Assembly: GCF_963677845.1 (NCBI RefSeq)
Contig: NZ_OY782498.1
Location: 3,107,518-3,171,517, forward strand
DNA from: an uncultured Pseudodesulfovibrio sp.
GTDB lineage: Bacteria > Desulfobacterota > Desulfovibrionia > Desulfovibrionales > Desulfovibrionaceae
Length of the DNA stretch: 64,000 nt
Reading direction: 5' to 3'
A model generated the notes under the pieces. The model searched no databases, had not been told where the DNA came from, and worked only from the letters and a program-made list of their open reading frames with translations. Below, piece after piece: positions 2,403 through 63,380 of the stretch (the stretch's first letter is position 1; the number at the start of each line of letters is the position of its first letter). The translations under genes and the position numbers were made by a program.

Positions 2403-4868
2403 ATGTCTCAATTCACCGCCACACTCAGAAAAGACTTCAGGCACATCATGACAATCAAAAAAAAACCTGCGAGACCAACGTCATACGTTGCTTTAGACGA
2501 AACATCGCGAGCCTTGATGGACTCCTCTGTGGAATCCGCATTCGTCATGGATGTAAGCGGATACGTCTTGGCGGCCAACGGAGCCGCGGAAAAACTTTTT
2601 GAGCTGAAGCCTGGGCAGACACTCCAACAATCCAATGTCTACGAACTTCTGCCCAGAGGGGCCGCAGATTCCCGCAAGGCCAAAATCGAAGAAGCGATCC
2701 GTGAAGTCCGCTCTGTCCAGTTTGAAGAAGAAATCGACGGTCGTTCTCTGGTTCATTCCATTGTCCCGGTAGCCAATCCTTGGGGAGAAGTGGCCCGACT
2801 GGCGGTTCACACTCTTGATCTGACAAAATTACGAAGAACCGACGAAGATCTTCGACGCGAACAACAACGACAAATTTTCTTCATGGAATCACTTCCCGGC
2901 ATCGTCTACCACCTCTACCCGGACCAAACCATCCGGTACGCAAACCGTTATTTCAGAAGATATTTTGGCAGCCCAAAAAATAAAACATGCAAAGAAGCCC
3001 TGAATTGTTCCTCTGGCTCCTGCGCATCCTGCCCCCCCATGGAAGCCATGAATACAGACCGGGCCGTGGAATGGGACTGGACCGATTCACAGGGGCGGAC
3101 ATTCCACCTTCAATGCAGTCCTATGACGGATTCCGCTGGAGAACGAATGATCATGGTCCTCGGCATAGACATCACAGCCAGACAGCAGGCTGAAGATGCC
3201 TTGAAACGAGCACATGACAAACTGGAAGATCGAGTAAAAAAACGTACAAAAGAACTCGAAGAAGCCAACATCAAATTGACCAACAAATCGACAAGACTAA
3301 TCTCCGCCATGAAAAAGGCAGATGCCGCCACACGGGCAAAATCATCCTTTCTGGCTAATATGAGTCACGAAATACGCACCCCCCTCAACGCAGTGCTCGG
3401 CATGTCAGAACTGGCTCTGACAATGAGTGACCCGGAACGAAAGGACGCGTACCTCAAACGGGTCATGGAAGCGGGCAACTCACTCCTCTCGATTATCAAC
3501 GACATCCTTGATTTTTCCAAAATCGAAGCCCGCAAACTGGCTCTTGAGGCCATTGATTTCGATGTAAAAAAAACTGTGGATTCTACCATGGATCTACACA
3601 TGCTCTTGGCAGCCGACAAAGGATTGGATTTAACATCCACGGTGGACGGATCCGTTCCTGCTGTACTGGAAGGAGATTCATCACGGCTACGCCAAATCCT
3701 TATCAATCTCATTTCAAACGCCATCAAATTCACTGAAACCGGCAGTGTCCATGTCGACGTGACAGCACAAGAACCACCTTCTGATATGAAGCCAGGAACC
3801 CCGGTGGCCGTGACGTTTACAGTACGAGATACGGGTATAGGCATCCCCATAGACAAACAAAAAACCATTTTCGGTTCATTTCTTCAGGCTGACGACTCCA
3901 TCACCCGCAAACACGGGGGCACCGGCCTAGGGCTCGCCATCTGCACGTTGTTGGTAAAACTCATGGGAGGAGAATTCTCACTCCAAAGTGAGGAGGGCAA
4001 AGGAAGCGCATTTTCCTTCACCGCCAATCTCCGCGTTGGCAACCAGAAGGCTCTGCAAGCTCAAGAGCAAAACCTGATGAATGCATCCATCCCGGAAATT
4101 CCCGAACTCAAAGTCTTGTTGGCCGACGACAACCCGCTTAACCGGGAACTTGCCACCACTCTACTGACTGAACGTGGTCACACCGTCACGGCTGTAGAAA
4201 ACGGCATCCAAGCCTTGGAGGCTCTCAAGGAAGAACGTTTTGACCTTATCCTCATGGATGTCCAGATGCCCATCATGGACGGAGTTTCGGCCACACGGGC
4301 CATCCGTGCGCCACAATCCGGCGTCGTCGATCCTTCAGTTCCCATTCTGGCCCTGACCGCCCACGCCCTCAAAGGCGATCGCGAACGTTTTCTGGATGCG
4401 GGAATGGATGATTACATTGCCAAACCCATTACCATGAACAATTTTTACAACGCCATTGCCCGAAACGTAGACAAAGGGCTGGTTAAGAAAAATTTACATC
4501 GTACGCCTCAACCCAAACCGAATAACGGCCAGCCCTATGATCGAGTGACGGCCTTGGACATGCTCGGAGGCAAAAAGGAGTTGCTGGCCCGTATGGATAC
4601 AATTTTCCTTCGAGACGTCCCCGGTGAAATGACTGAATTAACATCGGCCTTCGAGAGCCGCGACTGGGATACTGCCATGCGACTTGCCCACTCTATCAAA
4701 GGATCATCCAGAACTGTTGGGGCACTTAAAGCCGGTGCGGTTGCCGAACAAGTTGAATACTTGTGCAGGCACCAAGATGCCTCCTCTGCCAAGAAAGAAC
4801 TTAAAAGCCTTGAATCTGAAGTTAAATCTGCGCTACAGTATATTAATCTGACGCAAGGTTCGGCGTAA
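2403..4868 (+). CDS. Hybrid sensor histidine kinase with receiver and Hpt domains
   Basis: An 821-residue cytoplasmic kinase with no membrane segment. Order: PAS (about 38-145), second PAS (about 155-265), coiled coil (265-310), HisKA with the phosphoacceptor H322 in MSHEIRTPLNAVLG, HATPase (N box NLISNAIKFTE, G boxes DTGIGIP and GGTGLGLAI), receiver starting VLLADDNPLNR with the acceptor Asp in LILMDVQMP, and an Hpt domain with AHSIKGSSRTVGA. All catalytic residues of the phosphorelay look intact. The second PAS carries four cysteines close together (C196, C202, C207, C210), which could bind a metal or cluster. A single-domain receiver follows 28 bp downstream and is the likely partner or a competing phosphate sink. 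Confidence 0.9.
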   Translation: MSQFTATLRKDFRHIMTIKKKPARPTSYVALDETSRALMDSSVESAFVMDVSGYVLAANGAAEKLFELKPGQTLQQSNVYELLPRGAADSRKAKIEEAIREVRSVQFEEEIDGRSLVHSIVPVANPWGEVARLAVHTLDLTKLRRTDEDLRREQQRQIFFMESLPGIVYHLYPDQTIRYANRYFRRYFGSPKNKTCKEALNCSSGSCASCPPMEAMNTDRAVEWDWTDSQGRTFHLQCSPMTDSAGERMIMVLGIDITARQQAEDALKRAHDKLEDRVKKRTKELEEANIKLTNKSTRLISAMKKADAATRAKSSFLANMSHEIRTPLNAVLGMSELALTMSDPERKDAYLKRVMEAGNSLLSIINDILDFSKIEARKLALEAIDFDVKKTVDSTMDLHMLLAADKGLDLTSTVDGSVPAVLEGDSSRLRQILINLISNAIKFTETGSVHVDVTAQEPPSDMKPGTPVAVTFTVRDTGIGIPIDKQKTIFGSFLQADDSITRKHGGTGLGLAICTLLVKLMGGEFSLQSEEGKGSAFSFTANLRVGNQKALQAQEQNLMNASIPEIPELKVLLADDNPLNRELATTLLTERGHTVTAVENGIQALEALKEERFDLILMDVQMPIMDGVSATRAIRAPQSGVVDPSVPILALTAHALKGDRERFLDAGMDDYIAKPITMNNFYNAIARNVDKGLVKKNLHRTPQPKPNNGQPYDRVTALDMLGGKKELLARMDTIFLRDVPGEMTELTSAFESRDWDTAMRLAHSIKGSSRTVGALKAGAVAEQVEYLCRHQDASSAKKELKSLESEVKSALQYINLTQGSA

Positions 4869-35318: not shown

Positions 35319-35394
35319 GGGTCGTTAACTCAGTTGGTAGAGTATCTGCCTTTTAAGCAGAGAGTCACTGGTTCGAGCCCAGTACGACCCACCA
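35319..35394 (+). tRNA. tRNA-Lys (anticodon TTT), CCA encoded
   Basis: 76 nt. Acceptor stem GGGTCGT pairs with ACGACCC; the anticodon arm is TCTGC-CTTTTAA-GCAGA, giving anticodon TTT; the T arm contains GGTTCGAGCCC; the sequence ends in A-CCA. Confidence 0.97.
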
Positions 35395-35399
35395 TTTCC

Positions 35400-35475
35400 G
35401 TCCCCATCGTCTAGTGGCCTAGGACTCCGGCCTCTCACGCCGGCAACAGGGGTTCAAACCCCCTTGGGGACGCCA
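35400..35475 (+). tRNA. tRNA-Glu (anticodon CTC), CCA encoded
   Basis: 76 nt. Acceptor GTCCCCA pairs with TGGGGAC; the anticodon arm is CCGGC-CTCTCAC-GCCGG, giving anticodon CTC; the T arm contains GGTTCAAACCC; the sequence ends in G-CCA. Separated by 5 nt from tRNA-Lys and probably in the same transcript. Its 3' end is a plausible integration site for the island that follows. Confidence 0.97.
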
Positions 35476-50978: not shown

Positions 50979-51533
50979 TTAAGCGTTTTTGACGTAAAGA
51001 ATGGACTGGGTACTCATTTTCTTGATCACCTGCTTACCTTTGGCCTCAGCTTGCATCAGGAGAATTTCCTTTTCGCCGAAACTGAGTGCTCCTGTCAGAC
51101 AGACATCAACACAAACCGGGTCCAGACCGTGAGTCACGCGGTCATAACATAGATTGCACTTATGTGCGTAGTTCTCTTCCTTGTTGAACTGAATAACATT
51201 ATATGGACACTTTTCGATACATTCGCCACAACCGGTACACTTCTCCGTGTCGATAAGCACGATGCCGGTCTGTGGGTCCTTGGATATAGCATCGTATTCA
51301 CATGCCTTGGCACAAGGATACTTCTTGCAATGCTGACACATGACGACCCAATAGTCTTCACGCAGTTCAGGATAGGTTCCTTCCAATTTACTTTCTACCC
51401 GAAGATAATTGGCCATGGCTCCGGGTTGATCATTCTCGTGGTCGATTATTTCGTGATGATTCCGGCAAGCCACGATGCAGGTCTTGCAACCGATGCAGCG
51501 GTCCAGATCCACCATAATGCTGAGTTGTCTCAT
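50979..51533 (-). CDS. Four-cluster ferredoxin, electron-transfer subunit
   Basis: 184 residues with four [4Fe-4S] motifs: DLDRCIGCKTCIVACRNHH, CQHCKKYPCAKACEYDA, CTGCGECIEKCPYN and CNLCYDRV ... CVDVCLTGA. This matches the DmsB/HycB-type subunit that accepts electrons from a molybdopterin catalytic protein. It follows the oxidoreductase gene by 12 bp. No signal peptide. Confidence 0.9.
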   Translation of the reverse strand: MRQLSIMVDLDRCIGCKTCIVACRNHHEIIDHENDQPGAMANYLRVESKLEGTYPELREDYWVVMCQHCKKYPCAKACEYDAISKDPQTGIVLIDTEKCTGCGECIEKCPYNVIQFNKEENYAHKCNLCYDRVTHGLDPVCVDVCLTGALSFGEKEILLMQAEAKGKQVIKKMSTQSILYVKNA

Positions 51534-51545
51534 TTCACACCCCTC

Positions 51546-53681
51546 TTATTTGTATATCTTGACTCGAGTCGAGACATGCGCCTCGCCACCGCGCATATCC
51601 TGTTCGTCCAACGTGGAACCGGCATCGGCAATCAATTCATTGTCGCCTATCCACTTGCCGCGAGATGCCACCTTGCCCATGGTCTGACCAAATCCGTGAA
51701 TGATGCCCGCGCAACCGGGAATAATCTTTTCAGTCAACATGACAGGGACCTCAACAGAACCTGTACCTGATGCCATGGTCACGGTATCGCCATCAGAAAT
51801 ACCGAGTTTTTTTGCATCAAGAGGATTCAGGAGACAGGGGTTGGCGTCGAGACCGGATACGGGGTCACGAAGCTGTGCGTTATTTTGGGACCATGCGCCC
51901 GTATTGTTCAGGAAAATGGTCCTGAAATTAACAAGAATGAATGGGAACTCATCTTCACCACGACGATATTCCAATGGCAGTTCAGGACTGGGCCACTTCT
52001 GATCAATGTCCTCGTACATCTGCCATTCCAACTCGATCTTGCCGGATGGTGTATTGAATTTTCCGTTATCTTCATATTTACGAAAACCAACAGCTCCCGG
52101 CGACCAAAGGCCACCGTTCTCTTGGAGTGTCTTGACGGACATACCCACGCCGGACAATTCGATGTCGTAATATTCTACATCGTCCTTGAACGCGAAGTAC
52201 TCGGGGAACATGCGCTGACCAAGCTCGATAAAGACACGGTTGGCATGTCTGGACTCACCGATGGGATCAACAACTGGCTGACACAGCGCCGCACAATGAC
52301 CAAAGTTGTACCACCACGGCATGTAGAGTAATTCCCACCGCTCAAAGTTGGTCTGATCAGGCAAAACGAGATCGGCCCATTTCATGGTTTCCGACGGCAT
52401 AATCTCGGTCACTACAAGCAGTTCCAGCTTGTAGTCGCCATTCTCGTCCTTCATGGTCACGGCCTTACGCCATTCGCCTGACCCCATTTCGGACAGAGCC
52501 GGGTTGCACTCCGAGGCAAAGAAGACCTTGAGGGTATCGTCCTTGATAGCCTGCGCAGCGTACCATGTGGGCTGAAGGAAGAAATTGTAATTGTCGAATT
52601 TTTCCCTGTTATTACCGGACCGATGATAGCCAAGCTCTGTAACATCAGGTGCCGGAGGAACGGGTTCAACCGCTGCCATGGGTGCGATGTCTGGCAAGGG
52701 CTGCCCCCCCGGATTGTCCAGATTGCCGGTAATGACAAGGAAGATGGACCAAGCGTGTCCCCAATCCATGGCGTTCCCGTACATAATGGACTTGAATGCG
52801 TCGATACAGGCACTGGGAGCCTCGGCAACCATCTTGGCGAGCTTGATGATATCCTCGGCCGGGACATCACAAATCTTGCTCATGGCTTCCGGTGTCTTGT
52901 CCTTGATGTATGCCATCAGGCCGTCCATGTCGCCTTCACGAACCCATTTGTCACAGAACTTCTTGTCATGCAGATCATTCAGCAACAAATAGTTGCAGAC
53001 TCCCAAAAACAACGATGCGTCTCCACCGGGCTTAATGGGAATCCACCAATCCGCCTTGGATGCTTCCGTACGATAAATGGGATCGATAACAATGAGTTTT
53101 GCTCCGCGCTCCTTTGCGTCGAGGATGTAACTAGGTACTGCGGCGTCATCCAGACAACCGAACGGATGACGACCGGACAAAATCATCAGGCCGCCCTTGG
53201 GCACCGTGTGATACATAGGGGCGATGTGATGATTGGGAAAACAGCCGAATGTATGCATCATGGCCATGATCTTTCCCGAATCGCAATGAGGCAGGCCGGT
53301 CGAAATGAAGCCTCCGGCAGCATTGACAAAACGCCACTTCGGATCGGTCACGGAGTGTGGAAACATGGAGTAGGTAAACTTGTGGGCCTCACCGCGATCA
53401 CGCAGTTCGGTCAACTTTGTTTCCATGATGTCCATGGCTTCTTCCCAGGTAATGCGCTCGAACTTTCCACTGCCACGCTCCCCTACACGCTTCATGGGAT
53501 GCTTGAGACGCTCGGACGAATACAACGAAGTGATGCCAGCCATCCCTTTGACGCAGGCCTTGCCGCGTCCGCGAGGATTTCCCTTCACTTCCTTGACGAC
53601 ACCATTCTCTACACGCGCCAAAATGGCACATTCAGCTTTACACTGATAGCAGACAGTTGGAATCCACCCATCTTGATACAT
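51546..53681 (-). CDS. Molybdopterin (W/Mo-bisPGD) oxidoreductase catalytic subunit
   Basis: 711 residues. The N-terminal [4Fe-4S] ligands are C11, C14, C18 and C43 (VCYQCKAECAI ... KACVKG); bis-MGD binding blocks follow (GGLMILSGRHPFG, LIVIDPIYRTEASKADWW, FFASECNPALSEM, NPLDAKKLGISDGDTV). No twin-arginine signal, so it is cytoplasmic. It has no selenocysteine; a Cys at 133 (LPHCDSGK) may be the metal ligand. It is in the DMSO-reductase superfamily, near polysulfide/thiosulfate reductases and acetylene hydratase; the substrate is not clear. Its operon holds an FNT channel and a tiny membrane protein, pointing to a small-anion substrate. Confidence 0.88.
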   Translation of the reverse strand: MYQDGWIPTVCYQCKAECAILARVENGVVKEVKGNPRGRGKACVKGMAGITSLYSSERLKHPMKRVGERGSGKFERITWEEAMDIMETKLTELRDRGEAHKFTYSMFPHSVTDPKWRFVNAAGGFISTGLPHCDSGKIMAMMHTFGCFPNHHIAPMYHTVPKGGLMILSGRHPFGCLDDAAVPSYILDAKERGAKLIVIDPIYRTEASKADWWIPIKPGGDASLFLGVCNYLLLNDLHDKKFCDKWVREGDMDGLMAYIKDKTPEAMSKICDVPAEDIIKLAKMVAEAPSACIDAFKSIMYGNAMDWGHAWSIFLVITGNLDNPGGQPLPDIAPMAAVEPVPPAPDVTELGYHRSGNNREKFDNYNFFLQPTWYAAQAIKDDTLKVFFASECNPALSEMGSGEWRKAVTMKDENGDYKLELLVVTEIMPSETMKWADLVLPDQTNFERWELLYMPWWYNFGHCAALCQPVVDPIGESRHANRVFIELGQRMFPEYFAFKDDVEYYDIELSGVGMSVKTLQENGGLWSPGAVGFRKYEDNGKFNTPSGKIELEWQMYEDIDQKWPSPELPLEYRRGEDEFPFILVNFRTIFLNNTGAWSQNNAQLRDPVSGLDANPCLLNPLDAKKLGISDGDTVTMASGTGSVEVPVMLTEKIIPGCAGIIHGFGQTMGKVASRGKWIGDNELIADAGSTLDEQDMRGGEAHVSTRVKIYK

Positions 53682-53720
53682 AACGTTCTCCTGTTGTTAT
53701 CGCAGAAAACACATTTTCAT

Positions 53721-53852
53721 TTACTTTTTATGACTATCTTCTTTAAAGCGGTATTTTTTTCTATACGCATTCCCGATGATCCAAATAAACGCCCATACAG
53801 CGATGAAGACGCCCCAGATCAACGGATTGAAAGGACTGTAATCGAAGTTCAT
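53721..53852 (-). CDS. 43-residue single-helix membrane protein
   Basis: An unmarked small gene between the molybdoenzyme and the FNT channel. It reads MNFDYSPFNPLIWGVFIAVW, continues as a hydrophobic helix to about residue 30, and ends in a basic tail RKKYRFKEDSHKK. AAGGAGG lies 5 nt before its ATG and its start overlaps the FNT stop by 4 bp (ATGA), so translation is coupled. Stop TAA at 53721-53723. Probably a channel- or enzyme-associated helper; no family recognised. Confidence 0.75.
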   Translation of the reverse strand: MNFDYSPFNPLIWGVFIAVWAFIWIIGNAYRKKYRFKEDSHKK

Positions 53853-54751
53853 TCCACCTCCTTAAGTTCCCCGTCGGCAGCCATGAATTCATGACGTTTG
53901 CGGTACAAATCCTTGAGTTTGAGGGGATCTGCCACCAACTGGAACACAACCGCCACGAAAAGCGTTCCACCAATAGCATTCCCCATGATTGTAAAGAGTT
54001 GGTTATGTGCCCAGCCAAACTTACCGAATCCCCAGTGCATCAGCACTGGAACGACGTTGTTCATACCGGAAACGGCCTCAACCCACATGTCCTGTTGAAA
54101 AAGCGGCACAGCCAAAAAGCCGATGTTCGCTATGCAGTGTTCATTCATGCCTGCCACAAAGGCCAATGGCCCGTAAGCGGTCAGAACGATCTTGCTCATG
54201 TCATCGTTGGTTTTCATGAAAAGGATGGCTGCGGATTGCAGTGTCCAAGTGCAGATTATACCCATGACAAAGATTTCCATGGCGGTCTCGCCGGTCTTTG
54301 CCAGGCCAATTTCATGGGCCCGCATAAGCCAAGGAAGAGCGTGGTAACCGCCGCCTTTACTCATGATCCACATGAACGTCATGGAGCCTATGAAATTACC
54401 AATATATCCCACAAAAACACCCCAGACGAACTGTCGCCAAGTGATGCGATCCTGAAACACTCCAACCAACCCATAGGCCATGTCTGCCGTGACAAGCGTC
54501 ATTCCGCTGAACATGATGATGACCAACGAGAACATAAATACGAGACCCATAAGTAAATTGGCTAATCCCGGAGCCAGACTACTCGGCACCCCGGCAGAAA
54601 CGGCCAATGCCAACATGGCACCGAAGCAGACAAATGCCCCTCCCGCAAAAGCGGAAAGTAGAAAGGCCAGCGGCCTTTTTCGCAGCATTCCCCACTTCTT
54701 GTCGCATACGTCTGCGACTTCCATCAGATGTTTTTCAGGACTCAAAGGCAT
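53849..54751 (-). CDS. FNT-family formate/nitrite-type channel
   Basis: 300 residues with six membrane helices (AFAGGAFVCFGAMLALAV, LVFMFSLVIIMFSGMTLVTADMAY, FIGSMTFMWIM, MGIICTWTLQSAAILF, IANIGFLAVPLF, GNAIGGTLFVAVVF), the FNT pattern. These pentamers pass formate, nitrite, hydrosulfide or lactate. ATG 54751 (MPLSPEKHLMEVADV) has GGGAG upstream and gives the family length; an open frame to 54910 adds 53 residues that do not look like an FNT N-terminus. First gene of the molybdoenzyme operon. Confidence 0.88.
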   Translation of the reverse strand: MPLSPEKHLMEVADVCDKKWGMLRKRPLAFLLSAFAGGAFVCFGAMLALAVSAGVPSSLAPGLANLLMGLVFMFSLVIIMFSGMTLVTADMAYGLVGVFQDRITWRQFVWGVFVGYIGNFIGSMTFMWIMSKGGGYHALPWLMRAHEIGLAKTGETAMEIFVMGIICTWTLQSAAILFMKTNDDMSKIVLTAYGPLAFVAGMNEHCIANIGFLAVPLFQQDMWVEAVSGMNNVVPVLMHWGFGKFGWAHNQLFTIMGNAIGGTLFVAVVFQLVADPLKLKDLYRKRHEFMAADGELKEVE

Positions 54752-55032
54752 CCAATTCTCCCATTCGAAGGGATACGCCTCTGATATAATAGCGCATCCC
54801 CTCACTCTCTCAGCAATCGCTTGCATGGTTATCCTGTCTTTCCACCAGCCAGCGCCGTGCACTGCGCGCAGACGTTTTTCGTCGTCCACACAAATAAGAG
54901 CCATGGGCACAAGAAAAAGTTACCTGTATAAGGATAAAATATGAAAGTTTTATAAAAAACCTAACAAAAAAGGAGTGTTGGGAGATGTCTTTTTTTAAAG
55001 GACAGAAAGAAGAAGAAAAGCGTGATCCTTCT

Positions 55033-58884: not shown

Positions 58885-59529
58885 TTATGCCTTCTTTTCC
58901 CATTCCTCTACTTCAAAGCCCTCGGGAACTTCTTCCCAACCGGAGAACATGGCCGCAATATGCGCGGTGACAGAATGTCCGGTGGTCGTCATATAAACGT
59001 GAACAATGAGGAAGATAAGGATAGAAAACCCGCCAATCAGATGCAACAAACCTATCACTTCAAGTGAGAGGAATGACAACCCCCAATTGGCCCAATCGTT
59101 GTATCCCCAGTACAGGAAACCGGTCACCATCTGGAATGGCAACAGCATGGCCGTCAATGCCAGATAGGTCAGTCGCTGCATGGGATTATGCTTTGCGCTC
59201 TTGGACTTGTGCACAGGGTGCTCTTCTCCCTTGAAGATGCCTGACCCATAATACGTGGCCACCTCGAAAAGCTTCTTGGTGGTCGGAATGTATTGTTTGT
59301 ATTCGTGGGTTACGAACATCCAAAAGGCAAAGAAGAAAAACATGCCGAGCCACAACAGCCCCAGGGTGTTGTGCAGATCAACCGCCCCCATGAAACCGAA
59401 CAACTCAAACGTACCATGTACTTCAAAACCAGTGGCCAGAAGCAGGATAATCATGATGGCCTGAAACCAGTGCCAGAAACGCTCAAACTTGGAATACAGG
59501 TATATTTTTTTCATTGATTGTTGACTCAT
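58885..59529 (-). CDS. Cytochrome b (thiosulfate/formate reductase b-type, quinone subunit)
   Basis: 214 residues with four membrane helices and paired histidines (FERFWHWFQAIM, DLHNTLGLLW, GLLHLIGGFSILIF, VHVYMTTTGHSV), the pattern of di-haem b subunits of formate dehydrogenase or thiosulfate reductase. It should move electrons between menaquinol and the octahaem cytochrome encoded just upstream. AAGGAGG precedes ATG 59529, which lies 3 bp after the cytochrome stop. Confidence 0.88.
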   Translation of the reverse strand: MSQQSMKKIYLYSKFERFWHWFQAIMIILLLATGFEVHGTFELFGFMGAVDLHNTLGLLWLGMFFFFAFWMFVTHEYKQYIPTTKKLFEVATYYGSGIFKGEEHPVHKSKSAKHNPMQRLTYLALTAMLLPFQMVTGFLYWGYNDWANWGLSFLSLEVIGLLHLIGGFSILIFLIVHVYMTTTGHSVTAHIAAMFSGWEEVPEGFEVEEWEKKA

Positions 59530-59532
59530 GGA

Positions 59533-61254
59533 CTAATCCTCCTTCCTTCTGAGACCGGAGACAAAGCGCATAATGCCATGAATGATAACAGCCAATAATG
59601 CGGCTCCTGCGCCAAACCACCCTGCGGAATCCACAAGCTGATACTTGTCCCGACCCGGCATATAGAATCCAGTCAGGTCCTTGAGTCGCCCTTCAGGATT
59701 ATGGCACTGGGCGCACTTCAGCGCGTTCTCGCGGGGTGCAACCATATGTGTGGTCGGGAAAGCGTAGGTCGTTTCCACAAACCCGAATTCACCACTGTAT
59801 TTCTGTCCGGCATATTTCATGCCCACTTCAATGGATTTTTCCCAGTCAAACCCCTTCCAGTATGCAGTCTTGTCCTTCTTGTCGAAGGGGAAAAGATGCG
59901 GAATGACCATGGTCTTGTTGACCTTGTCATATGGAGACATGGCCCGATGCACTTTGAACGGCATGATGCGGGAATTCGGGTCTTTCCTGTCGCCGTTTGG
60001 CCGATTCAGCCAGACTTCCCCGGTAGGATCGATGGCATCTTCGGTGGTGACGTGATCCATGGTCCCGTCGAACCAATAATATTCAGGTACAACATCCTTT
60101 TCCCAGACAAACTCACCCTTTTTCTTCAAAAATACCGGCTTACCATCTGGCCCCTTGATCTTGGCTTTACCGTCCATAAGTTGTCCTGCTTTGGACCAAT
60201 CCCACCACATCTTGGTGGATTGGGCACGAGCAAATTCAGGAATATGGCATGACTGACACGCCACCTTGTCGGTATGATCATTCAACTTGGAAAACATACC
60301 GCCGCTCATGTGGGGCTGGCTGCCGTGGCAGGATTCACACATAATCTTGTCGCCAAGGTCGTCCTGAAGCAGACTCTTGCGTTCCAAAGCCGCAGGCTTC
60401 TCATAAATACGCCCGGCCACATGATGATTCCGTGTGGTGTGACAACGGGTACAGGCAAAGTCCTGACCGCCGGATTCCTTGGTCCCCATATGAACATCGA
60501 GATTCTTGTCAGGTTTGACCAAGGAGGAATCAAGATCGCCATGCTTAACCGCATCAGCCCCACCACCAAAGAAATGGCAGGAACCGCAGTTCTTGCGTTC
60601 CGGGCGGCCAACGGATTGGGCAACCTTGGCCCAGTCAGGTGCATAATAGGTCTTGCCGTTTGATTTGAAGACCACGCCCTTCTGCGTACCCGGATTTTCC
60701 GGGTCCTCGACATATTTGGCGGGATAACCCGCACCGGACGGAAACTTTTTGTAGGTTCCGGTTTTTTCGTGACAGACAAGACAGTCGACTTTTTCCTGAG
60801 AGGTAAAGTCAAAGCTGTTGTCTTTCCATCCATAACCGGCATGACATGATGTGCAACGAGCCTCGTTGCTTGCGGTGTTTATTCAAAAATTGTTGACGGA
60901 TATTCCGCCCTTGCCGAACTTTGCCGGATTCCCGGCTTCGTCTTCATCCCGCCAAGTCCAATGAATGGTCTGATGAAATTGTAAAGCCGCCTTGTTGTGA
61001 CAACCAAGGCAGGCTTGCGTGACCTCTTCGGGTCGCATGGTCTTTTGTTTTTCCGGATCAAATTGCAGCTGGGCGAATTTGCTGTGATCAGCCGTGATAG
61101 TCTGAATAAGCGGTTTCGCCTTGGTCGCCTGAATGGCCAATTTTCTGCCCGGCGCGTTTTCGTGCTCCACTGCGGCCCATGCGCTTCCGGCATGAACCAT
61201 CACGAACAACACCGCCAGGGCCGTCAACAGCCATCGCCGATTGCGAATGGTCAT
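59533..61254 (-). CDS. Octahaem cytochrome c (tetrathionate reductase family) with an in-frame TGA, probable selenocysteine
   Basis: 573 residues if TGA 60883-60885 is read as selenocysteine 124. Signal peptide (RRWLLTALAVLFVMVHAGSAWA), eight CxxCH motifs (CLGCH 82-86, CTSCH 134-138, CLVCH 158-162, CGSCH 223-227, then CTRCH, CESCH, CQSCH, CAQCH) and a C-terminal membrane anchor (GAGAALLAVIIHGIMRF) give the shape of an octahaem tetrathionate reductase family protein, anchored to the outer face of the inner membrane. The frame is open for 123 codons before the TGA and 449 after, with haems on both sides. The TGA lies ten residues before CTSCH, where I recall a cysteine in relatives (NNFC). A hairpin follows. 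ATG 61254 has AGGAGG. Annotated separately, it would look like two broken genes. Confidence 0.85.
60853..60885 (-). promoter_or_regulatory. Candidate bacterial SECIS hairpin after the in-frame TGA
   Basis: On the minus strand the TGA (60885-60883) is followed after 13 nt by GCAACGA (60869-60863), loop GGC (60862-60860) and TCGTTGC (60859-60853), a perfect 7-bp stem with two G in the loop's first two positions. The distance from TGA to the loop is 20 nt, within the range described for bacterial SECIS elements as I recall it. Confidence 0.7.
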
Positions 61255-61376
61255 GTTCAACCTCCTGTTACTCTCGGTACCCCTTCCCGGAGGCCCATGC
61301 GCTCCGGAAAAAACTTTCATCTGTCTATATGTGCATGTTTTCATGTTTGATGTCCATATTTCATGAAATCGATCAA

Positions 61377-62384
61377 TCATCCCTTCACCGGGACTGTAAC
61401 AGCACCTTGCATGGACTCGGCTTGTGAATCACCAAAGATTTTCGGAGTAAACCGGACGTACCAGGCCGCGGACTGAACCTGAATGACATACGCCATGGCT
61501 ATGACTAAAGCGGCATCCGACCCCTTGGAGCCAAAGGCGTTGATGGCAATTGCCAATGCAATGGAAAGATTACGCATGACCGAGCCATAAACCAATGCAA
61601 TAGCATCACCACGCGACAAGAAGAACTTGCCCACCACGGTACTCAAAACAAAATTCACGCCGTAAATAATCACGAGCGGGGCAAGGATATCGAGCAGTAC
61701 TTCGGGAGCCGAGGCAATAGTCTTTGCCTTGAGCGCCAAGGCCACGAACACGATGCCGAGAACGCCCAGCGTGGAAAGCGACGGAAACTTCGGCCCGATC
61801 TCTTTCTGAAATAATCCTTGACCATAACGGGCCACCAGAAACCATTGAGTGAAAAAGCCCAAAACCATGGGCAAAAACACAATGAAAAAGATCTGCCTGA
61901 ATACGGCCAAAAGGCTTATATCAATGGTCGTCCCCATGAAGGCCTGCACATAAAAGGGTGTAGCCAAAGACCCCAGAATCAGACCGATAACAGTCATTTT
62001 GATGGCAGCAGACATGTTTCCCTTGGCAAAACCGGTCCACGAAATGGTCATACCACTCGTGGGTACCAGTCCGGCCAAGAGCAGACCGAGGGCCATGTAT
62101 GGATTGTCTTTAAAAAAGAGGAGGCCGACGCCAAAGGCGAGGAAGGGAATCAGCCCGAAATTAATGAGCTGAGTAAGTATTTGCGCCTTGACGTCGCCCC
62201 CCTCAAAAACCTTCCTGATCTTGAGTGTGACCATCATGGGATAAACCATGAGGAAGGTGAATGGAACGATCATGGATTTAAGCCAGCCGGTATCGGCGGA
62301 CACTCCGTAAACAAACCCTGCCACCATCATCACAGGGATGACGACAACAAGATTTTTAGATATTTTCTGAAGCAATGCGAACAT
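61377..62384 (-). CDS. BASS/ACR3-family membrane carrier
   Basis: 335 residues, about ten membrane helices (VVVIPVMMVAGFVYGV, PFTFLMVYPMMVTL, LLAGLVPTSGMTISWTG, IVFLPMVLGFFTQWF, VMRNLSIALAIAINAFG). It resembles the bile-acid:sodium symporter and arsenite (ACR3) superfamily. ATG 62384 has AGGAA upstream. It sits between a zinc-ribbon gene and the octahaem cytochrome, so it may move the cytochrome's substrate or product. Confidence 0.8.
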   Translation of the reverse strand: MFALLQKISKNLVVVIPVMMVAGFVYGVSADTGWLKSMIVPFTFLMVYPMMVTLKIRKVFEGGDVKAQILTQLINFGLIPFLAFGVGLLFFKDNPYMALGLLLAGLVPTSGMTISWTGFAKGNMSAAIKMTVIGLILGSLATPFYVQAFMGTTIDISLLAVFRQIFFIVFLPMVLGFFTQWFLVARYGQGLFQKEIGPKFPSLSTLGVLGIVFVALALKAKTIASAPEVLLDILAPLVIIYGVNFVLSTVVGKFFLSRGDAIALVYGSVMRNLSIALAIAINAFGSKGSDAALVIAMAYVIQVQSAAWYVRFTPKIFGDSQAESMQGAVTVPVKG

Positions 62385-62405
62385 GAATATTCCTCGCTTG
62401 AGCAA

Positions 62406-62624
62406 TCAGTCCTGACCGGAGTCGCCCATTTCGGTTTCACGACATTCAGGATCGGAACAACACGGAGCCTCACCGTCACGGTACACAACCACTCCGTTAC
62501 GCACCGGTTCCACGATGAACCGTCTGGTACAATCTGAGCAATTGACGTAGAAAGGACGGTAGTCGCTGTATTCAGCGGTTTCCTGACCAACAGAACAATA
62601 CGGGCAATGAACGTGGGCACTCAT
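62406..62624 (-). CDS. Small cysteine-rich zinc-ribbon protein
   Basis: 72 residues with CPYC, CSDC, CC and C-x4-type cysteines (VHCPYCSVGQ; YVNCSDCTRRF; APCCSDPECRE). No family recognised beyond a zinc ribbon. AAGGAGG lies 6 nt before ATG 62624; an upstream in-frame start at 62687 lacks it. First gene of the octahaem-cytochrome operon. Confidence 0.75.
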   Translation of the reverse strand: MSAHVHCPYCSVGQETAEYSDYRPFYVNCSDCTRRFIVEPVRNGVVVYRDGEAPCCSDPECRETEMGDSGQD

Positions 62625-62726
62625 GATGACCTCCTTGATATGTCTCAGTGTCGCCCTTAAAATAGACCTCTCCACGCTGGACGGCATTGATCTCGATCAA
62701 CACAAACGACTTTTTCAGGATTTTTG

Positions 62727-63380
62727 ATGAAAAAAAATGAACTCAAGGACGCAATCCGGGATTTTCCGGTATTTGCCAAGCTCAAGGAAGAGCAGCTCGA
62801 CCGACTGGCTTCACATGCCGAAATCATGGAATTCCCCAGAAAATCACTGTTCTTCAGTGAAGACAAATCAGCTCAGGGCATGCATGTACTGCTCTCGGGA
62901 CAGGTGAAACTGTTCAAGATATCCGAAGACGGAAAAGAACAGACCATCTTTGTCTTCGGTCCGGGAGAGCCGTTCTGTCTCTGCTCCACCTTTTCCGATG
63001 GCAAGCTGCCAGCCAATCTCGGAGCATTGGAGAACAGTCAGGTTCTATACATCACGCCGGATGAATTCGAACTGTTGGTCCAGGAAGACCCGTCCATCCT
63101 GCTCGTCATGATGCGGGTCATGTCCCGCCGTCTGAAAGAAGCCATGGACATGATCGATTCCCTATCACTCAAGCAGGTGCCGTCCCGATTGATGGCCTAC
63201 TTTGAAAGCCGCCATCAGGGTGGCCGCGTCACGCTTGATCTGTCATACCGGGAACTCGCCAAGATCATCGGTATCACCCCGGAGGCTCTGTCGCGAACCC
63301 TGCATAAGATGGTCAACGACAAGCTGATCGCCATGGATGGATCAGACATAATGCTTACAGGTACAGACAAAACAGACTGA
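62727..63380 (+). CDS. Crp/Fnr-family transcriptional regulator
   Basis: 217 residues. Cyclic-nucleotide-binding-like beta roll (about 12-120; [38 protein letters not shown]) and a C-terminal winged HTH ([20 protein letters not shown]). The N-terminus has no cysteine cluster, so it is not a classical Fnr; it may bind a ligand or haem, as in HcpR or DNR types. It is divergent from the octahaem-cytochrome operon (103 bp between starts) and is its most likely regulator. ATG 62727 is used. Confidence 0.88.

Follow-up and report, generated by a model that had tools for sequence, protein, structure and literature searches.

Octahaem cytochromes of the tetrathionate reductase family are represented by the protein family model TIGR04315. 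The structure PDB 1SP3, which appears among our matches under the name 'cytochrome c, putative', is taken here to be that of the octahaem tetrathionate reductase (OTR) of Shewanella oneidensis, and the lysine at position 153 of its chain (Lys153) is assumed to be the distal ligand of its catalytic haem. This presumed lysine ligand, which is kept in the protein studied here, distinguishes OTR from the thiosulfate dehydrogenase/tetrathionate reductase TsdA, whose haem ligand is a cysteine. The Shewanella OTR reduces nitrite, hydroxylamine and tetrathionate, and haem II is its catalytic haem, according to a paper in which the structure code is printed as 1S3P (PMC4484225). TsdA is comparable as a sulfur-compound enzyme with a cysteine at its active haem and His/Cys ligation; it differs in being a dihaem protein of a class distinct from OTR and in that the cysteine itself is the haem ligand (PMC5146829). 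The gene considered here lies in a stretch of 64,000 nucleotides from an uncultured Pseudodesulfovibrio sp., the whole of which is referred to below as the window.

Multihaem cytochromes with selenocysteine (Sec) have been described or proposed before, and two of them, ExtKL and GSU2937+GSU2936, presumably constitute one family. Both are, like the window protein, deltaproteobacterial multihaem cytochromes with an in-frame TGA (PMC13188914; PMC1914089). ExtKL is given as a selenoprotein with the family model NF040886 and not TIGR04315 (PMC13188914), and GSU2937+GSU2936, a candidate from Geobacter, differs from the window protein by five N-terminal CxxCH motifs and a C-terminal part that resembles no characterised protein (PMC1914089). 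TIGR04315 itself is listed as a selenoprotein family in a table of a 2026 review, where it is marked 'GenBank annotated' and represented, in a row without a motif, by WP_331457571.1, a member of the same family as the window protein and likewise with one Sec (PMC13188914). The term 'octaheme' occurs a single time in the text of this review, which under that name does not take up position, SECIS, history or function. TIGR04315 is not named as a selenoprotein in the available portions of PMC9012536, PMC1914089 and PMC2702500, and the terms cytochrome, tetrathionate and heme are absent from the main texts of PMC5029168, PMC2398784 and PMC12013277. No further account of a Sec octahaem cytochrome was found in the literature covered. 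Because of the listing in the review, this kind of gene is already known and its novelty is lower than a first-pass annotation of the same DNA had implied: the window gene is a well-supported member of a known selenoprotein family. What is added here is the equivalence of its Sec with Cys64 of OTR, the distinction of two types of SECIS, no fewer than seven Sec/Cys exchanges required by a quick tree, a Cys gene retaining the hairpin and the presence of Sec in a second paralogue clade.

The interrupted gene and its surroundings

The first-pass annotation had described a single TGA in an otherwise open frame of 573 codons, with reading resumed in the same frame through the second CxxCH motif, and this description holds. 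On the minus strand, a frame runs from an ATG at 61254 to a stop codon ending at 59533 with codon 124 as its single interruption (Table 1). The CxxCH motifs at residues 82, 134, 158, 223, 268, 306, 333 and 514 all share this frame, the second one starting 10 residues beyond the TGA. In a profile search the 573-residue frame matched TIGR04315 with 591.1 bits (cut-off 375) over profile positions 1-440 of 440, in agreement with its identification as an octahaem cytochrome. As had been foreseen for automatic annotation, an ORF listing made with the standard code splits the gene into two pieces (60883-61380 and 59533-60675). The nearest named record among the matches listed is that of Pseudodesulfovibrio sp. 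isolate OB3, whose protein is 99% identical. The genome of the window (3.70 Mb, one contig) contains a single TIGR04315 match.

Table 1. Positions of the features of the octahaem cytochrome locus, numbered from the first letter of the window
Feature	Position	Strand	Remarks
Octahaem cytochrome c gene, TGA read as Sec	59533..61254	-	573 aa; TIGR04315; 8 CxxCH
TGA codon 124, very probably read as selenocysteine	60883..60885	-	Only Cys or TGA among 198 homologues; aligns with Cys64 of 1SP3
SECIS-like hairpin GCAACGA-GGC-TCGTTGC	60853..60869	-	7-bp stem, GGC loop; overlaps the SNEARC codons
Second haem motif CTSCH, residues 134-138	60841..60855	-	Overlaps the hairpin end; aligned with CTSCH of 1SP3
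Lys237	60544..60546	-	Equivalent to the Lys at chain position 153 of 1SP3
Putative export signal peptide, about residues 1-27	61174..61254	-	Translation judged by eye
C-terminal hydrophobic helix, about residues 546-565, possible membrane anchor	59560..59619	-	Translation judged by eye
AGGAGG ribosome-binding site ahead of ATG 61254	61261..61266	-	Upstream sequence
Cytochrome b561-type membrane protein	58885..59529	-	Ni_hydr_CYTB match; thiosulfate reductase cytochrome B match below cut-off

Residues 76-179 and 207-524 of the window protein align with OTR 1SP3. Since the alignment is ungapped over residues 76 to 179, residue 124 is equivalent to chain position 64, a cysteine, in line with the earlier proposal that Sec124 stands in place of the non-haem cysteine of OTR. 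The spacing from the NNF-Cys/Sec motif to CTSCH is equal in both proteins and Lys153 is kept as Lys237. Besides having Sec for Cys64, the window protein differs from OTR by a C-terminal hydrophobic helix (judged by eye) and by an adjacent cytochrome b gene. In view of these two features, the cytochrome may be anchored to the membrane and face the periplasm instead of being free in it.

The cytochrome b561-type gene starts 3 nt beyond the stop codon of the OTR-family gene. A cytochrome b homologue was found on the same strand at 40 of the 49 other TGA loci and at 107 of the 146 Cys loci, any distance being accepted and short loci being scored as lacking. Its presence at most loci suggests that electrons come from the quinone pool via the cytochrome b neighbour. 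Upstream of the cytochrome gene, at 61377-62687 (minus strand) and 62724-63380 (plus strand), lie an SBF/ACR3-like transporter, a Cys-rich protein of 93 aa without family match and a divergent Crp/Fnr-type regulator, and a 12-bp palindrome, ATTTCATGAAAT, is found at 61358-61369. Elsewhere in the window, the minus-strand region 50979-54910 encodes a molybdopterin oxidoreductase-like protein of 711 aa (51546-53681) beside ferredoxin-like and formate/nitrite-transporter-like proteins; these names rest on inspection by eye and on weak matches to formate dehydrogenase. Two tRNA genes stand side by side at 35319-35472 (plus strand).

The sel genes expected in the genome were all found over cut-off: selA (615.1 bits), selB (398.4 bits), selC, i.e. 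tRNA-Sec (81.8 bits), and selD (341.6 bits). The SelD gene has one in-frame TGA of its own, and the hairpin behind it, with a stem of 7 bp and a loop of 3 nt, stands at a spacing identical to that of the cytochrome gene. Three formate dehydrogenases over cut-off in this genome each contain one TGA with an 8-bp stem behind it.

Codon 124 and its hairpin among homologues

Homologues were drawn from a genome-contig scan (80 of 97 loci), a family sample of 199 genomes and a phylum sample of 395 genomes. The TGA genes were fetched deliberately and the other matches in part only, which gave 203 aligned open frames; three rows without a letter at the position (two fragments and one N run) and two duplicates were left out of the count, leaving 198. 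In the family sample, 51 of the 73 rows over cut-off were aligned, including all 13 TGA rows, and the other 22 are without internal stop. All 31 TGA rows over cut-off in the phylum sample were aligned, together with part of the remaining rows.

Position 124 is encoded by a cysteine codon in 148 of the 198 non-duplicate homologues (97 TGC, 51 TGT) and by TGA in the other 50, and no other residue was found at this position among them; the ratio 50:148 is no frequency because matches were sampled in part and TGA genes purposely. The cysteine predicted at this position in relatives is present in every one of these rows that lacks TGA. Apart from the haem motifs, column 124 is the sole invariant Cys/Sec column of the alignment. 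TGA recurs at this same codon in rows that span 99% to 42% identity, a recurrence that answers the earlier concern about a sequencing error. For the six closest of seven pairs compared, pN is 0.09-0.24 before the TGA and 0.09-0.15 after it, with pS at 0.61-0.87; for the seventh, L041 (60% identical), pN is 0.37 before and 0.26 after. Both sides of the TGA are under purifying selection. The apparent stop is very probably a selenocysteine codon at a place where relatives have an invariant cysteine, and the Sec reading of TGA 60883-60885 is strongly supported. A further 22 genes, more distant and with few exceptions below cut-off, were inspected by eye; 19 of them seem to have a cysteine at the like place, in the contexts INDFC, INTFC, NSYC, YTMC and YSMC. 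TGA seems to stand at this place in L242 (genome G348) and L243 (G457), both below the family cut-off and included in the alignment as L186 and L187, and L246, a relative below the family cut-off, seems to have neither Cys nor TGA. These assignments in distant relatives are leads only.

The 7-bp stem with a GGC loop that had been noticed downstream of the TGA is indeed present, the stem starting 13 nt and the loop 20 nt after the TGA. On its own this hairpin is only modestly unusual. When the peptide was recoded synonymously, 297 of 20,000 versions had a stem as long and 784 of 3,000 folded at least as stably, and a perfect 7-bp stem follows at a suitable place 15 of the 2,573 TGA trinucleotides of the window (both strands, any frame). 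These counts are not far beyond chance, and the significance of the hairpin by itself was thus rejected. It comes instead from the homologues, as a perfect stem of at least 7 bp follows 46 of the 50 TGA codons vs 1 of the 148 Cys codons. In two further TGA genes, L170 and L174, six of seven pairs are Watson-Crick pairs and the seventh is G-U (by eye).

Three sets can be told apart among the 50 TGA genes: type A (19), type B (29) and the pair L186 and L187, the two most distant TGA genes, from which both hairpin types are absent. In type A the TGA is followed by NEARC, and the codons AAC GAG GCT CGT TGC as well as the full 17-nt hairpin are identical in all 19. The type A hairpin is invariant though synonymous sites elsewhere are near saturation, and among the 71 Cys genes with NEPR (65) or NEAR (6) the codon AAC is used in 52, GAG in 37, CGT in 8 and TGC in 47. 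Type B is characterised by NWCRC (25) or NWCSC (4) and by a hairpin, mostly CTGGTGC-AGGT-GCACCAG, that begins 17 nt past the TGA; its codons TGG, TGC and ACC are constant in 29/29. The tip of this hairpin appears to resemble the element of E. coli fdhF.

Exchange between Sec and Cys

A TGA gene is present in 11 of the 67 family-sample genomes and in 30 of the 69 phylum-sample genomes with a match over cut-off, the genome of the window being included in both. In the family, tRNA-Sec was detected in 23/23 genomes examined, with and without a TGA gene. In the phylum it was found in 29 of the 31 genomes with a TGA gene, two of which (G348 and G457) have the TGA in distant relatives only, and in 27 of the 30 with a Cys gene. 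As tRNA-Sec is common in both groups, it is compatible with Sec and does not separate the two forms, and it was discarded as a discriminator of Sec and Cys genomes.

A FastTree tree of 195 rows, computed with the trait columns removed, shows eight Sec/Cys changes, of which at least seven are forced by starred branches; the tree is unrooted with long branches and does not give the direction of exchange. Sec and Cys copies occur in one genome in G329 (L158 and L184 with Sec, L207 with Cys) and in G377 (L182 with Sec, L155 with Cys). Each of types A and B occurs twice on the tree, once in the main clade and once in a second paralogue clade that is 42-45% identical to the window protein and in which L137-L139 are of type A and L182-L185 of type B. 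A cytochrome b homologue was not found in the DNA covered at these seven second-clade loci, two of which have no room downstream. Matches to class III cytochrome models were obtained in addition for L138 and L139. The occurrence of the same 17 nt in such different proteins suggests either gene conversion or convergence.

The gene L057 of a Desulfatitalea MAG (positions 3001-4548) has TGT at 3244-3246, yet all 17 nt of the type A hairpin follow; in the sister gene L157, which is 71% identical, the codon is TGA. L057 may represent a recent change from Sec to Cys or, possibly, a consensus error. No tRNA-Sec over cut-off was found in its genome (best 45.1 bits). Pieces of selA and selB over cut-off are present, selB from base 1 of its contig and selA split over two contigs, so that an account of L057 through lost Sec machinery fails. 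Of the sister Cys genes, L140 retains 5 of the 7 stem pairs and L050 retains 4. Since Cys genes overall have 0 to 7 stem pairs (4 pairs in 52/149) and many of them keep as many, these two genes are no clear hairpin fossils.

A possible role for selenocysteine 124

The most coherent explanation of this locus is a Sec octahaem cytochrome of the OTR family, with hairpin-directed decoding of UGA124, export, an electron path and Sec124 near haem 2, to which as a whole a probability of about 0.9 is given. UGA124 would be decoded in the cell by tRNA-Sec and SelB under the direction of the downstream hairpin. The product would be exported, loaded with eight c-type haems and held, probably, at the periplasmic face of the membrane together with the adjacent cytochrome b, and electrons delivered by the quinone pool would travel along the haem chain as far as haem 2, the catalytic one. 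In place of the invariant cysteine of OTR position 64, Sec124 would lie near haem 2 and its lysine; as Cys/Sec sits 10 residues ahead of the CxxCH of that haem, we infer that it lines the haem pocket. A substitution of Sec for the lysine ligand was considered and rejected because Lys237 is retained in all rows counted (48/48 Sec rows, the two most distant omitted, and 148/148 Cys rows). The most likely role of Sec124, which we hold at roughly even odds, would be that of an active-site selenolate: it would bind an S-S (or N-O) substrate or attack it, with the electrons coming from haem 2. More tentatively, the selenolate over the Lys-ligated haem 2 might form a covalent Se-S (or Se-N) intermediate that is reduced by the haem chain. 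Selection for this chemistry could then account for the many Cys/Sec switches, and the two SECIS cassettes could have come to stand in both the main OTR clade and the second paralogue clade, part of which carries class III cytochrome domains as a fusion, either by gene conversion or by a convergence forced by combined coding and RNA constraint.

A rival reading is that the gene is a pseudogene, that the TGA is a sequencing error or that UGA is read as a residue other than Sec. A standard ORF listing does split the gene, but the same-codon TGA in 50 non-duplicate genes led us to reject both pseudogene and error, and purifying selection on both sides, near-invariant hairpins and the sel genes of the genome make this whole reading very improbable. 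It is much easier to conceive of a Sec124 that is real and non-catalytic, serving fold stability, the tuning of the haem 2 potential or protection against oxidation, with the chemistry taking place at the haem alone. Cys forms persist in genomes with tRNA-Sec (27 of the 30 mentioned above) and Sec and Cys have been exchanged repeatedly, so that Sec as such is not essential. However, a purely structural site might be expected to admit Ser or Ala somewhere, and the 198 homologues have Cys or Sec only, next to a lysine that is invariant and, judging from OTR, belongs to the same pocket; by eye, the distant L246 alone seems to have neither residue. A non-catalytic Sec124 accordingly retains a substantial, though minority, share of our belief. 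An unlikely third possibility is that UGA124 acts as a selenium-dependent switch, the product ending after the first haem at low selenium and its task passing to a Cys enzyme or another pathway. The co-occurrence of Sec and Cys copies, as in G329 and G377, would fit such a switch, but the genome of the window has its one TIGR04315 match alone.

With the reading as a Sec octahaem cytochrome, what was a single line of database annotation becomes an enzyme that can be put to the test. As a plain ORF listing cuts them in two, genes of this kind may escape annotation that is blind to Sec. The finding also bears on the exchange of Sec and Cys in bacteria, for which changes from Sec to Cys are documented mainly for FdhA and SelD according to the 2026 review (PMC13188914). 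In the OTR family, the match of Sec to the invariant non-haem cysteine in many relatives indicates that this cysteine is chemically important, and the natural Sec/Cys pairs, some of them within one genome, offer a ready comparison for the role of the residue at a multihaem active site.
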